Below the pieces are notes generated by a model, which was given only the letters and a program-made list of their open reading frames with translations, did not search any database and had not been told where the DNA came from. This document shows positions 18,588 to 59,129 of a stretch of 64,000 bases of DNA, one piece after another. This DNA is from an uncultured Bacteroidota bacterium. Lineage in GTDB: Bacteria; Bacteroidota; Bacteroidia; JABEUT01. The translations under genes were made by a program, and so were the position numbers. The DNA lies in the NCBI GenBank assembly GCA_903901055.1, contig CAIUPO010000063.1, forward strand, positions 62,001 through 126,000. Reading direction: 5' to 3'. Position 1 is the stretch's first letter. Every line of letters begins with the position of its first letter.

Positions 18588-18835
18588 GTCATTGACTTTT
18601 TAAAGAAACAATTTCTGATGATTTAATTTTGCTTTATGAAACATTGCAAATCCATATTTTCATCAAACCTGATAAACAAAATTAAAAATCACTTTTCCTG
18701 TTCCGGCCTGTTAATAACAGGAATCATAATTAACATACTATTGAATTACAGAATGTTAACAAAATTTGATTTTCCTGTTATTTCAGTTATTCTCCCTGTT
18801 ACTTCCCTGTTATGGCTCCTGTTATCTTCCTGTTA
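18588..18835 (+). promoter_or_regulatory. Element A: GTCATTGACTTTT, TAATTTTG motif, palindrome CCTGTTA-A-TAACAGG (18707-18721), 11-bp-periodic CCTGTTA array
   Basis: CCTGTTA at 18707, 18774, 18795, 18806, 18818, 18829; degenerate CAGTTAT near 18784; CCTGTTCC at 18697; TAATTTTG 18624-18631. Confidence 0.8.
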
Positions 18836-18873
18836 TTTATATACATTTTTTAAACCATTTTAACTATTTTATT

Positions 18874-19200
18874 ATGAAATACCAAAAAGGACAAAGCGGC
18901 AATCCTGATGGCCGGCCAAAAGGAACTTACACAAAAGTCAGTTCCAAACAACGAGAGTTTTTACGCGAATTTATTCTCGATAACAAAGAAAAATTCGAAA
19001 CCGAAATCGGAAAATTAGAGGGTAAAGAGTTCCTCCAATTATATCTTTCCCTAATGCAGTACATCCTTCCAAAACCGGCTACAGCCGAGCTTAAGGAAGT
19101 CCCGAAATTGGAGGAATTTATTGCCATGACACCTGAAGAAAGACAGATAGCCATGGAAGAAATAAGGGAATCTATAAATAAAGAAAAAGCCAAACTATGA
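18874..19200 (+). CDS. Small GQSGNPxGRPKG protein (DUF5681-like, putative DNA-binding)
   Basis: MKYQKGQSGNPDGRPKGTYTKVSSKQREFLREFILDNKEKFE; AT-hook-like GRPKG. Start trimmed to the ATG after the array (ORF opens at 18766). Confidence 0.65.
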   Translation: MKYQKGQSGNPDGRPKGTYTKVSSKQREFLREFILDNKEKFETEIGKLEGKEFLQLYLSLMQYILPKPATAELKEVPKLEEFIAMTPEERQIAMEEIRESINKEKAKL

Positions 19201-19538
19201 GAAATGCAGTGAAAAAACGAATGCGGAAATTGGATGAAGAACGCAGGAAAAAGCAAGTGGAGAAGATTGACAATATGCAAGAGACGGAAAATGTTTTGGG
19301 AATGGTTGGCACCGAATTTATAACCAAATATCCTGAAGGCAGTTATATCACATTTACAAGTGACCGGAAAAAGGGTGAAGAAATCACCCAGGTATCCTGT
19401 GCATGGTATGATAAAGAGGGAACCAAGAAAAATTTTGTAAGCAACCCGCCCGAATGGCAAAACATTACCCAGGAAGAGGCCGAAAAAATTGCCAAAAAAT
19501 TCGACCAGTCTATGTTTCTAGGGATGGTATATGTTTAG
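19197..19538 (+). CDS. Unknown protein, translationally coupled to the GRPKG gene
   Basis: ATGA overlap with the upstream stop; basic N-terminus MRNAVKKRMRKLDEERRKKQVEK. Confidence 0.65.
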   Translation: MRNAVKKRMRKLDEERRKKQVEKIDNMQETENVLGMVGTEFITKYPEGSYITFTSDRKKGEEITQVSCAWYDKEGTKKNFVSNPPEWQNITQEEAEKIAKKFDQSMFLGMVYV

Positions 19539-54850: not shown

Positions 54851-54998
54851 TTACGAATTAGGAATTACGAATTCCAAAAATAAGTAACCTAGCTATGAGA
54901 TATAAGCTATCAGATATAAGCTATGAACATTGGGATGTTAAATTATACAATTATGAATCAGAAATTGGTGGCGATTTAGCAGGGAAAAAGGGGCAAAA

Positions 54999-55252
54999 TA
55001 ACAACGAAAATAACAATGAACTAACAACGGATAACAACGCAAATAACAACGAATTATCAATGCAATAACAATTAGGGTGAAAAAATAGAATATTGATTAT
55101 CTGATATTTACATGAATATTCGTTGTTAATAACAACGATTAACAATAAAAAAACGAGCACAATTATCCCAACTTTTACTTGCCGGAATGTTGTTTTGTTT
55201 TTCATAAAGTAAAGATACTACATGAAAAAGTATTTTTATAAAAGTCATTGAC
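54999..55252 (-). promoter_or_regulatory. Element B: GTCAATGACTTTT, TATCTTTA motif, palindrome CGTTGTTA-A-TAACAACG (55121-55137), 11-bp-periodic half-site array
   Basis: TAACAACG-type units (plus strand) at 54999, 55011, 55022, 55032, 55044, 55055, 55066; same order and spacing as element A. Confidence 0.8.
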
Positions 55253-55430
55253 CTGTCGGATGCCCGACTTGCAATTATTTATGAACAGTGGTATTTGACA
55301 GTGAAAAACTAAATCCATTTTACCACTAAGGACACAAAGAAAATACACACTAAGTTTCTCAAAGGTGAGAGTGCTTTTTCAAAATAACAATGATAACAAT
55401 GAAAAAAAGACACTAATTAGTGGGACCGAA

Positions 55431-56753
55431 TTAGTGGCTAATAATGCCTTTTATATAAGAGGAGTTTAGCCAATAACACATTTTCTTTTCCATTGTACCA
55501 GCAGGCGTCTCCATTAAATCCCTACTATTAATACCTTTAGGCCTAACATGGCAAATCATGTTATCCGAAATCTTAATAAAGTGCTTAAAATCATTCTTAG
55601 CAATCTTTTTCTTAGTATCAACCCAATATTTATGTGCAACCTCAAGATCTTTGACTGGCATTGTCCAGAACATGACTTTTTTCAATCTAGCTTGTCTTTT
55701 TGCGTCTTTTTGAAATATCACAAAGAAGAATCTCTTGGTTAGGGTATTTAACCAATATGAATCCTCCCAAGTTTCATTAACTATTTCTTTATATTTAATC
55801 TGTGCAAAAGACATGCTTTCTTTTAAAGCATCAGAATATTCAATACGGATTGTTTTCATTTCTATTTCAGCCTTCTCGAATTCTTCAATTTTCTCCTTCT
55901 TAATACCCAATATTGCTTTTGCTATCAAATAAAACCTGCTTTTCGAAACTGATTTAGGTAATTTTAGTTTTTTAATAATCTCACTCTCTGACATACCATA
56001 ATATGGAGCAAAACGCTTTTGAACTAACTCTTCAAATGATTCATCCGTTTTGTATTCTTTTAAATCTTTTACTATTGGTTCCGCCGGAAGACTTTTTCTA
56101 ATAATGAAATTAAGATATTTCGACTTTAATGAGAATGCTCTCTGCATTGCCAATTCTGAAGAAAATGGCTGTTTTCTTAAAGACGATTTATTTGCACCTT
56201 TGGTACATGCACCTAAATATAGCGTATCCCCTTCTGATATTTCATGTGCTTTGCCAGCCTTTATTTTTGTTATTATTTTCACCCAATCATCTTCAATAAT
56301 TTTCAGGTCAGTAGATGGGAACTCCCAAAGCTTAATAATCTTAAAAATAAAATCCAAATCTTCGATGCCCTGTTGATGCAAAAAGAACATCAGCAACAAT
56401 AGTTTATTCTTTATCCAAAAACTACTTGTTTTAAACGTTTTACTATATTCTTCCTCATAATTAATGATATTAAATACAAGTCTTTCCTTTGAGGTTAGAC
56501 CTTTTGTTGTCCTTTTTAAAGGGCTGGTCTTTAATTCTACTCCTGCTTCTACAAAGTCAGGTCCAGATCCAGAATTTGGCTTATACTGAAAATAAAGGTC
56601 CTCAAGAGCCTGCCCTAGTTTACCTTTGCCAAAATATGTCTGTTTGATATGTGAACCTAGTACTTCTCTAATAGATTTATTAAGAAGCCTCTTAGCATAT
56701 GATTCTATTGATTTTGAATCTTTCTTATTGTAAGGTAAATTAAGTTCTGCCAT
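55431..56753 (-). CDS. Sau3AI/MutH-family type II restriction endonuclease
   Basis: SIREVLGSHIKQTYFGKGKLGQALEDLYFQYKPNSGSGPDFVEAGVELKTSPLK (D...ExK core); adjacent to a C5 methyltransferase. Confidence 0.82.
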   Translation of the reverse strand: MAELNLPYNKKDSKSIESYAKRLLNKSIREVLGSHIKQTYFGKGKLGQALEDLYFQYKPNSGSGPDFVEAGVELKTSPLKRTTKGLTSKERLVFNIINYEEEYSKTFKTSSFWIKNKLLLLMFFLHQQGIEDLDFIFKIIKLWEFPSTDLKIIEDDWVKIITKIKAGKAHEISEGDTLYLGACTKGANKSSLRKQPFSSELAMQRAFSLKSKYLNFIIRKSLPAEPIVKDLKEYKTDESFEELVQKRFAPYYGMSESEIIKKLKLPKSVSKSRFYLIAKAILGIKKEKIEEFEKAEIEMKTIRIEYSDALKESMSFAQIKYKEIVNETWEDSYWLNTLTKRFFFVIFQKDAKRQARLKKVMFWTMPVKDLEVAHKYWVDTKKKIAKNDFKHFIKISDNMICHVRPKGINSRDLMETPAGTMEKKMCYWLNSSYIKGIISH

Positions 56754-56758
56754 TTCAA

Positions 56759-58012
56759 TTAAATTCTATTTGATAATGACCTTCCAATTTTCTCAATTAT
56801 ACCTATTACAAGTGCGTTCCCCATCATGAAGGCTCTTTTATTATCAGATAATCCTGCAGTATGCTCATCAGGGAACATATTTAAACGTTCAAGTTCTAAA
56901 GGCATCAGGCGCCTTAGTCTTCCATCTCTCGTTCTGATAACATGTTTAAAACGTGATGGTGATGATCCACCTTCCCCTGTAATAATTGTTCTCGATGGCT
57001 TATCTAGTGGGTCAGGGAATACCATGGAACCTTCGCTGTAATTATAGTTGAAACCTCCTGCCTTATTAGTACGGACCTCATTCTTTGCACCTTTCAAATA
57101 ACTCCACTTATCCAAACTATCTTCATCTATATAATAATCATTTGGCACTTTTCCATTCAATAAAATAAACTGCCCAAGAGTTTCGTAAGGTCCTTGATAA
57201 TCCGGCAATGTCTTTATAGTGTGAATAATTCCATCAATCATAATACCAGTATTTTCAAAAGGGCTGTCAGAGCCTTCCTTATTGAATTTTCCACTTACCT
57301 CAGAAACATTCTTCTCAATAGTGAATGGCAGTTTTAACAGTTGGAGTTCTGGCGTTTTAACCGGAAAAGCCTCAGCAATAGGGCCATTTTCCAGTATCCA
57401 ATCAAATGGTGATTTTAATTTATTGATTTGTTTGTAGATAGCAGATGAATTGTGGTAAGCAAGAAAGAAAACTCTTCTCCTTCTCTGAGGCATTCCATAA
57501 TCCGCAGCATTGATTACTCTCCATTCAACAATATATCCAAGATTTGAAAGTGAAGCAAGCATAACGGCAAAATCCCTTCCCCTTTGTTTTGAAGGAGATT
57601 TTAATAATCTATCTACATTCTCTAAAAATAGATATTTCGGTTTCTTCTTTTTCTCATCAAGTATTCGATGTATTTCCCACCATAATACTCCCTTTTTTCC
57701 GTGCAACCCTTTAGCATTTTTCAATGTAGTTGCAACAGAATAATCCTGACATGGAAATCCTCCAACAAGCATATCAAAGTCAGGAATCTCATTTATAGCC
57801 ACTGCAGCAATATCTTTATTAGAGTGTCCTTCGAATCCGAAATGCTTCACATAAATTTCGGAAGCATCTTGTCTTTTTGTAGATGGTTCCCATTGATTGC
57901 TCCACACAATTTTATAATTCTTTGCCGCTCTTTCCAAGCCAATTCGAAAACCACCAACGCCAGCAAATAGTTCAATTACTTTTATGTTATTGCTTTTCGG
58001 AGTTGCTATCAT
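56759..58012 (-). CDS. DNA (cytosine-5-)-methyltransferase
   Basis: FAGVGGFRIGLERA; GGFPCQDYSVA; FLENVDRLL; YGMPQRRRRVFFLAY; MGNALVIGI. Confidence 0.96.
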   Translation of the reverse strand: MIATPKSNNIKVIELFAGVGGFRIGLERAAKNYKIVWSNQWEPSTKRQDASEIYVKHFGFEGHSNKDIAAVAINEIPDFDMLVGGFPCQDYSVATTLKNAKGLHGKKGVLWWEIHRILDEKKKKPKYLFLENVDRLLKSPSKQRGRDFAVMLASLSNLGYIVEWRVINAADYGMPQRRRRVFFLAYHNSSAIYKQINKLKSPFDWILENGPIAEAFPVKTPELQLLKLPFTIEKNVSEVSGKFNKEGSDSPFENTGIMIDGIIHTIKTLPDYQGPYETLGQFILLNGKVPNDYYIDEDSLDKWSYLKGAKNEVRTNKAGGFNYNYSEGSMVFPDPLDKPSRTIITGEGGSSPSRFKHVIRTRDGRLRRLMPLELERLNMFPDEHTAGLSDNKRAFMMGNALVIGIIEKIGRSLSNRI

Positions 58013-58145
58013 GCAATTATTATTATTACCTTAAAATTGTATACTTCAAAATTACGAAAACTTTCTAACCTCATTTCTAAACTTCACTAAACATTTTTTT
58101 TCGTTATTGGTATCGTAATGCATTCTGCTTCTTCTGCTACCCCTA

Positions 58146-58204
58146 CCCCTCCGGCGGAGGGGATTTAGCCATTTCTGAGGGCAGTCCCCCCCGGGGCCGC
58201 CCTC
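58146..58204. repeat. GC-rich hairpins: CCCCTCCG-G-CGGAGGGG and GAGGGC...GCCCTC
   Basis: Perfect inverted repeats in the intergenic region upstream of the MTase and the S24 repressor. Confidence 0.7.
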
Positions 58205-58332
58205 ATTATGACTGGTTTACCAACATGGACATATTGGCTAACCTCTGACAGAAACTAAGAAAGAAACCTGCGAATTTTTCTTATTTCATAAAATAAAAAC
58301 ATCAACGATGCAAAGGAACTAATAATTTTAGT

Positions 58333-58354
58333 TATATTTGCCTACAAATTGTAG
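58333..58354 (+). promoter_or_regulatory. Promoter TATATTTG (58333-58340) and operator-like palindrome CTACAA-A-TTGTAG (58342-58354)
   Basis: TAnnTTTG match followed at once by a perfect 6+1+6 palindrome, just before the ATG at 58359. Confidence 0.6.
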
Positions 58355-58358
58355 ATAT

Positions 58359-59129
58359 ATGTCTAAGATAGCAAAAAACATCCGCCACCTGAGGGATTTA
58401 AAGAACCTCACACAACAAGAACTGGCTAATAAACTGAACGTTACGAAGGCCCGCATTGGTTCGTACGAAGAAAGCCGCAGTGAACCATCAGCCGAAATGC
58501 TGATAAAGTTCTCCAACTATTTCCACATCGCTATTGATGCCTTGCTGCGTGGAGACCTTACCAAAACCAACCTGGACGGGCTTATGAAGATAGGCAACAA
58601 CCGCCTGCTCTTCCCGGTAATACTGAATGAGGAGAACAACGAGGAGATAGAACTTATCTCGATGAAAGCCTCAGCCGGATACCTGAATGGCTACGCCGAC
58701 CCGGAATATGTGGAGCGGCTGCAACGCATTAAACTTCCATTTCTGCCGGCAGGCAAACACCGTGCCTTCCCTATTAAAGGCGACTCGATGCCTCCACTGC
58801 GCGATGGCAGCTTTGTGGTATGCAAGTATGTAGAGTCCTATAGCGATATAAAAGATGGGGCTACTTATGTGCTCCTCACCAAATCGGAGGGGATAGTATA
58901 TAAGCGGCTCTTTAAGCATCCTAAAAAGAAGGATTTGCTTACCCTCGTGTCCGACAACAAAACCTACCAGCCCTATGAAGTAAAAGCCGCCGATATACTG
59001 GAGGTGTGGGAATATGTTTGTTCGCTTAATATAGGAGCCTATAAAGAGGAAGAACTGAACTACACCAGCATTATGAATATGCTGAAAGGTTTGCAGGTGG
59101 AAATGAAATCGATAGGGCAAGGGAAATAG
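58359..59129 (+). CDS. XRE-family LexA/CI-like repressor with S24 peptidase domain
   Basis: HTH IRHLRDLKNLTQQELANKLNVTKARIGSYEESRSEPSAEML; S24 AFPIKGDSMPPLRDGSFVVCKYV; start trimmed from 58338. Confidence 0.88.
   Translation: MSKIAKNIRHLRDLKNLTQQELANKLNVTKARIGSYEESRSEPSAEMLIKFSNYFHIAIDALLRGDLTKTNLDGLMKIGNNRLLFPVILNEENNEEIELISMKASAGYLNGYADPEYVERLQRIKLPFLPAGKHRAFPIKGDSMPPLRDGSFVVCKYVESYSDIKDGATYVLLTKSEGIVYKRLFKHPKKKDLLTLVSDNKTYQPYEVKAADILEVWEYVCSLNIGAYKEEELNYTSIMNMLKGLQVEMKSIGQGK

Follow-up and report, generated by a model that had tools for sequence, protein, structure and literature searches.

Elements A and B, which lie on opposite strands of the window (the 64-kb stretch of DNA from an uncultured Bacteroidota bacterium analyzed here), proved on sequence comparison to belong to a genus-level family of dispersed short genes that share one layout, an open reading frame, co-variation of their sites and linkage to genes encoding DUF5681 proteins. 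Elements with a DUF5681 gene directly downstream, the N-terminus of whose product co-varies with the half-site, stand out in the same comparison as the master copies. Our leading interpretation, to which we give about an even chance, is that DUF5681 proteins read arrays of their own half-site type, which would form a dispersed circuit switched together with phage-like genes.

Anatomy of elements B and A

Element B is encoded on the minus strand and element A on the plus strand, with an identical plan in both. The original prediction, which had both elements read on the minus strand, was thus correct regarding the common layout, but its strand assignment fits B alone. The promoter of B is an activator-site-like GTCA-n-TGAC palindrome (GTCAATGACTTTT, 55252-55240, minus strand), followed by a -7 box (TATCTTTA, 55217-55210, minus strand; family consensus TATCTTTG) with the ATG 4 nt downstream. 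The start, CTTTATGAAA, has its ATG at 55205 on the minus strand, 47 nt from the G of GTCA, and opens a short hydrophobic ORF of 84 aa (54951..55205, minus strand) that spans the palindrome and the array. The forward-forward-reverse (F-F-R) block (55120..55146, minus strand) consists of a forward half-site TTGTTA at 55145-55140, 10 bp before a perfect odd palindrome, TCGTTGTTA-A-TAACAACGA (55120-55138), centered at 55129, which is +76; on the minus strand this palindrome reads CGTTGTTA-t-TAACAACG, and its 9-bp arms make it the longest odd-centered palindrome of the window. The array contains seven direct half-sites of the CGTTGTTA type, 10-12 bp apart (54999..55073, minus strand), whose units start on the plus strand at 54999, 55011, 55022, 55032, 55044, 55055 and 55066, the one at 55055 being degenerate (TATCAATG). 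Promoter, box, ATG, half-site, palindrome and array of B all lie exactly where they had been predicted. Two further reverse half-sites (AATAACAATGATAACAATG, 55383-55400) are present about 130 bp upstream of the B promoter, and the neighboring genes (55431-59129) encode a MutH-like endonuclease, a C5 cytosine methylase and an HTH/S24 regulator.

The promoter of element A (GTCATTGAC ... TAATTTTG, 18588..18631, plus strand) precedes a short hydrophobic ORF of 75 aa with its ATG at 18636 (18636..18863, plus strand), an F-F-R block CCTGTT..CCTGTTA-A-TAACAGG (18698..18721, plus strand; center 18714, at +78) and an array of direct CCTGTTA half-sites at about 18774..18835 on the same strand. Downstream lie the gene for a DUF5681 protein of 108 aa (MKYQKGQSGNPDGRPKG..., 18874..19200, plus strand), the candidate reader of CCTGTTA-type arrays, and ORF2 (113 aa, 19197..19538, plus strand). 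No confident family match was obtained for ORF2; frames homologous to it follow the DUF5681 gene at the C35 and C78 element loci, and one is visible also behind the C123 copy.

Copy number and controls

The genome that contains the window (G000) comprises 3.81 Mb in 146 contigs, and was compared with a sister genome of the same genus (G002). The array pattern TGTTAN{4,8}TGTTAN{4,8}TGTTA returned 56 matches in G000 versus 3 for the reversed pattern, and inspection of these places revealed that nearly all are complete elements with one plan; the 81 matches in G002 were elements of the same kind. The promoter pattern GTCAWTGACTTN{18,32}TANNTTTG is present in 55 copies in G000 versus 0 reversed, and elsewhere in the genus in 40 (G002), 10 (G008), 8 (G006) and 2 (G003) copies, with 0-1 for the reversed control. 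Roughly 90-100 array-bearing elements under this one promoter were collected from G000 and G002. The exact GTCAnTGAC..CTTTATGAAA pair was found genome-wide only in A and B, which were also the only places detected by a motif-free search of the 64 kb for 6-mers recurring every 10-12 bp; the same search found none in 20 Markov-shuffled windows. These counts (56 versus 3, 55 versus 0) and the empty shuffled windows rule out chance repeats in AT-rich DNA. The proposal that A and B were two members of one family was therefore right about the family and understated its number, since the genome search that it had called for exposed dozens of copies per genome, far above the reversed controls. It had also missed the promoter shared with phage-like structural genes, the selection acting on the short ORF, and the candidate reader encoded immediately behind the array of A.

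Outside the genus, the only CCTGTTA arrays in a 396-genome sample of the class were period-12 tandem repeats in one genome, and the array pattern had many raw matches in viral contigs. Dispersed intergenic CCTGTTA arrays with a spacing of exactly 11 bp are present in Pedobacter and one Sphingobacterium genome (L128, L131, L133, L135, L140-L142, L148, L152, L161, L163, L169 and L170, and further L172, L175, L178, L182, L185, L190, L193 and L196); in many of them, reverse half-sites located upstream fall on that 11-bp grid as well, and arrays occur at matching loci in different species (L131/L152, L133/L135). No DUF5681 gene was found at those of these loci that were retrieved. Sphingomonas sp. 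ERG5 (L132, L149) has CCTGTTATCGACCTGTTATCGA... arrays at 11 bp with a terminal CCTGTTAT..ATAACAGG palindrome, and a sister form in G004 and G009 (L107-L111), dispersed and without the GTCAwTGAC promoter, consists of a CATTGTTATTAACAATG-type palindrome plus three units.

Common plan and helical phase of the arrays

Throughout the family, GTCAwTGAC is followed after ~27 nt by a TAnnTTTG box, usually 4 nt later by the ATG, which there coincides with the predicted start of the transcript, after ~75 nt by the block F(-11), F, R, and after ~57 nt (or 68, 80) by 4-8 direct F units. An ATG at +4 from the box is by far the commonest offset (50 elements). In many elements a short palindromic insert of one of two kinds (CCGCC..GGCGG-like or TTGAAGG..CCCTTCAAGATAAA) separates the -7 box from an ATG that is kept behind it (L088, L089, L102, L103, L106, L569, L571, L584, L590; L042, L044, L566, L572).

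The units are spaced by 10, 11 and 12 bp in 49, 241 and 105 instances, respectively, with a mean of 11.15 bp. Successive spacings are anti-correlated (lag-1 correlation -0.34), and sums of four spacings have a variance of 0.71 versus 1.50 expected under independence, implying that the cumulative helical phase is held, which favors reading of the array as a double helix; as the elements share ancestry, these spacing statistics and those of arm-array agreement are inflated.

At least seven half-site types exist in the family, among them those that the TGTTA search had missed and the promoter-based search exposed (CATGGTTA, CATAGTTA, CATTGCTA, CATTGTA and CATTATTA). That the sites have co-varied within elements, as originally proposed from A and B, was supported by comparing the array consensus with the best reverse arm in 92 elements, which gave 583 matches within elements versus 524 expected (permutation p<=1e-4), with related elements carrying full weight (relatedness not removed). 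Mismatches between arm and units were unequal, T facing an arm G in 10.7% and A facing an arm C in 1.1%, an asymmetry that pairing in RNA could generate as well and that is confounded by motif position.

Linked DUF5681 proteins track the half-site

The sole Pfam match of the A-linked protein was PF18932 (DUF5681; E=3.6e-7, residues 2-31), and for one relative DUF5681 was likewise alone above the cut-off. A genus-wide search for close homologues identified 6 in G000, 4 in G002 and 1 in G008, and 11/11 of these clade genes sit 10-80 nt downstream of an element, while no DUF5681 gene of the A-linked clade was found in genus genomes without such elements. The pairs comprise the CCTGTTA type at C63 (= A) and C78, TTGTTA at C11 and C122, CATTGC at C39, C75 and in G008, and single pairs of the types CATAGTT (C3), CATGGTT (C35), CATTGTA (C36) and CATTATT (C123). 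Solo elements of the CATTGC type in G000 and of the CATAGTT type in G002 had no DUF5681 gene of matching type in these incomplete assemblies.

A correlation between half-site and linked protein, suggested as a test when the two elements were first described, was detected for residues 1-34 of the protein (Mantel r=0.43, p=0.003) but was absent from the remainder (r=-0.24, p=0.90); the test covered n=11 pairs, with the half-sites placed by eye in a shared 8-mer register. The N-terminal signal persisted in a partial Mantel test (r=0.40, p=0.011), was stable for cuts at 24-40 residues, and weakened to p=0.10 after dropping three related entries. Among individual residues, CATTGC-type proteins lack the P of GRPKG and have [NH]YK, and CCTGTTA-type proteins have Y3 where all other types have F3. 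Four more distant DUF5681 genes, from G004 and G005, have an upstream CATTGT F-F-R palindrome without the GTCAwTGAC promoter, which suggests from sequence that the link between site and protein predates the promoter.

DUF5681 homologues in other families had no array upstream, and none were found in viral contigs. The AlphaFold model of the window DUF5681 protein was poor (pLDDT 59), its PHROGs matches are of unknown function, and the literature consulted yielded one paper that names DUF5681, as a protein in a Salmonella phage proteome, with no function assigned. The domain is also found in Escherichia, Salmonella, Leptospira and Pseudomonas phages. In Leptospira phage LE4 the large terminase gene is immediately preceded, with an overlap, by a DUF5681-like gene, the only case seen of a small-terminase position, whereas in Felixounavirus the DUF5681 gene precedes the gene for an RNA-binding protein instead.

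These results bear on an unlikely alternative that we nevertheless regard as the strongest competitor, according to which the array would act in RNA, as part of a multicopy sRNA or leaderless mRNA in which the repeated units form pairs with the one reverse arm or, like a sponge, capture an RNA-binding protein. All sites lie inside the transcript defined by the promoter, but the unit spacing keeps a constant helical phase. Arm-unit complementarity is kept through at least seven sequence types, and at the matching class T.G mismatches, which wobble would allow, are more frequent than A.C; single-nucleotide palindrome centers, on the other hand, make poor RNA hairpins, predicted folding was no better than that of shuffled sequences (z mostly -1.7 to +1), and no Rfam match was obtained at the gathering threshold. 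A 14-member sRNA family is known from Bacteroides (PMC11697453), but here the half-site is tracked by the DUF5681 N-terminus, though DUF5681 could itself bind RNA. A structured non-coding RNA was rejected for the missing stable fold and Rfam match and for an ATG frame that is stop-free, unlike the other frames.

An open frame with a weakly conserved peptide

In 46 elements, stop codons before the array numbered 11 in the ATG frame versus 183 and 167 in the other frames, and the ATG frame was fully open in 39/46 versus 2 and 0. When all types were included, the frame was open in 56/69 TGTTA elements (other frames, 4 and 0) and in 11/22 elements of other types (0 and 1); the ORF of several CATGGTTA/CATAGTTA elements stops at the palindrome after ~33 codons. 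The peptides are hydrophobic and weakly conserved, and four of them had no Pfam match. Selection for a particular peptide sequence was rejected, because dN/dS values scatter around 1 and the frame in which the palindrome is read differs among elements; taken together with the open frame, these features make it seem that translation itself, or hydrophobicity, is maintained rather than a given sequence.

Stability at chromosomal loci

At several loci an element is shared by G000 and G002. At the gltX locus (L028/L101) the element cores are about 88% identical, and at three other shared loci (L033/L094, L041/L097 and L036/L090) the half-site type differs, as if it had been swapped in place. The elements of shared loci have often diverged further than the genes that flank them. 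At the gltX and pbpC loci the element is present in G000 and G002 and absent in other members of the genus, where synteny is broken, and at the B locus G002 has neither the element nor the adjacent restriction-modification genes. A role as leader of the next gene was rejected, since downstream genes are often convergent and unrelated.

A promoter shared with phage-like genes

In G006, G008 and G003 the family promoter is found before portal-cluster, head maturation protease, head-tail adaptor and baseplate wedge-like genes, and host genes are interspersed in this phage-like cluster, such as an aldo/keto reductase beside it in two species. In G000, related phage-like genes with the family promoter are located on contig C52; solo terminase-small-like genes have it on contigs C28 and C15. 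No arrays were found in the phage-like contigs L555-L560 and L564, and G006 has the phage-like cluster without arrays and without a DUF5681 gene of the A-linked clade. Free phages were rejected as carriers of the promoter after 10 IMG/VR matches, one per contig, that were taken as chance, and no convincing form of it was found in free viral contigs. Its presence on phage-like clusters and the want of a convincing form in free viruses indicate that the elements probably use a promoter that belongs to a phage-like system, either domesticated or resident. The phage-like set itself (portal, capsid protease, head-tail adaptor, baseplate, endolysin-like) is split by host genes in several species, with many blocks under a GTCAwTGAC promoter of their own (L555/L556, G006:C35; L557/L558, G008; L559, G003; L564, G000:C52), and constitutes, from its gene content, a candidate gene-transfer-agent-like or domesticated particle in Bacteroidota.

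In another reading, which we consider improbable, the elements would be host genes triggered by phage, with membrane-active peptides that halt phage production when fired by a phage activator and are silenced by DUF5681 and the arrays. A stop-free hydrophobic ORF in many copies would suit that function, but the peptide is weakly conserved, with dN/dS around 1, its frame relative to the palindrome varies, and the four peptides searched lack a Pfam match. Elements at shared loci often diverge more than their flanks and differ in half-site type, in line with such genes, and so is the occurrence of the promoter before phage-like structural genes in a relative that lacks arrays; this last observation makes capture from phage the simpler direction.

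To a packaging function we assign a lower probability still. DUF5681 would then be small-terminase-like, the arrays would be pac-like starts at dozens of chromosomal places, and the elements minimal hitchhikers. The pac site of phage SPP1 covers direct repeats together with the promoters and the beginning of the small terminase gene (PMC4737164), a layout that the elements recall, but the phage-like clusters are without such arrays, and G006 combines a cluster with neither arrays nor DUF5681 of the A-linked clade. Elements and capsid-cluster genes have a promoter in common, and solo terminase-small-like genes stand under it too; no large terminase, however, was found beside the A or C11 DUF5681 genes, the two surroundings read. 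The LE4 gene order, with a DUF5681-like gene directly before that for the large terminase, is offset by Felixounavirus, where an RNA-binding protein gene takes that place.

Proposed circuit and comparison with known systems

Under the preferred reading of the arrays by DUF5681 proteins, several DUF5681 subunits, lined up along one face of the helix, would bind each array as double-stranded DNA, with the KGQSGNPxGRPKG N-terminus as the specificity region. Firing of the activator of the phage-like structural genes would switch on masters and solos together, and DUF5681 would then occupy every array of the matching type, that in its own transcribed leader among them, resulting in feedback and in the marking of dozens of chromosomal sites. 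The reader of A would be the adjoining DUF5681 protein, and that of B the TTGTTA-type protein of contig C11.

REPIN-RAYT systems are dispersed palindromic repeats with one cognate protein gene, the RAYT being a Y1/HUH transposase. The present family resembles them in having many solos, few protein-linked copies, several types, a type that tracks the protein, and mostly fixed loci; it differs in that the protein matches DUF5681 alone, with no HUH/Y1 transposase, and in that the elements, unlike REPIN hairpin pairs, carry a promoter, an ORF and an 11-bp direct array. Judged by their organization, the elements work like REPIN-RAYT without being a member. CarH operators and plasmid parC sites have direct repeats near 11 bp that place successive protein domains on one DNA face, adjoin the gene for their binder, and number one or few per genome or plasmid. 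The tandem direct repeats, with their mean of 11.15 bp and compensated helical phase, are shared with CarH/ParR-type sites, whereas the linked protein is DUF5681 and not MerR-type or ParR, and there are dozens of sites, of at least seven half-site types, inside a transcribed ORF. As in SPP1/SF6 pac, direct repeats surround a promoter and the start of a gene for a (here putative) DNA-reading protein with phage-type expression; unlike pac, the elements exist in dozens of chromosomal copies, none in the phage-like clusters, with no adjoining large terminase seen. FopS and other Bacteroides multicopy sRNAs (PMC11697453) are similar as paralogous dispersed short units with Bacteroidota-type promoters, and dissimilar in that our elements have no stable RNA fold, keep an open frame, and carry a direct-repeat array and DUF5681.

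The literature consulted contains no description of such elements, and no described family was found to fit. Arrays of sites with cognate readers are a known kind, within which the present family has the look of a system, so far undescribed, of dispersed sites matched by readers of their own. More tentatively, and in a form that we consider possible but doubtful, the elements would be scattered DNA addresses of multiple specificities which, with their cognate DUF5681 readers, are housed in translated leaderless mini-genes under a domesticated-phage activator, so that upon one trigger each protein would mark those of the dozens of sites that match it, perhaps to serve packaging or protection, with GNPxGRPKG as an unrecognized DNA-binding motif.

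If DUF5681 proteins do read these arrays, a protein family without a function would gain a testable role as a sequence-specific reader, and the natural pairs of site and protein described here could serve to derive its recognition rules. A multicopy chromosomal element tied to scattered phage-like genes in Bacteroidota would, in addition, bear on how hosts capture phage promoters.
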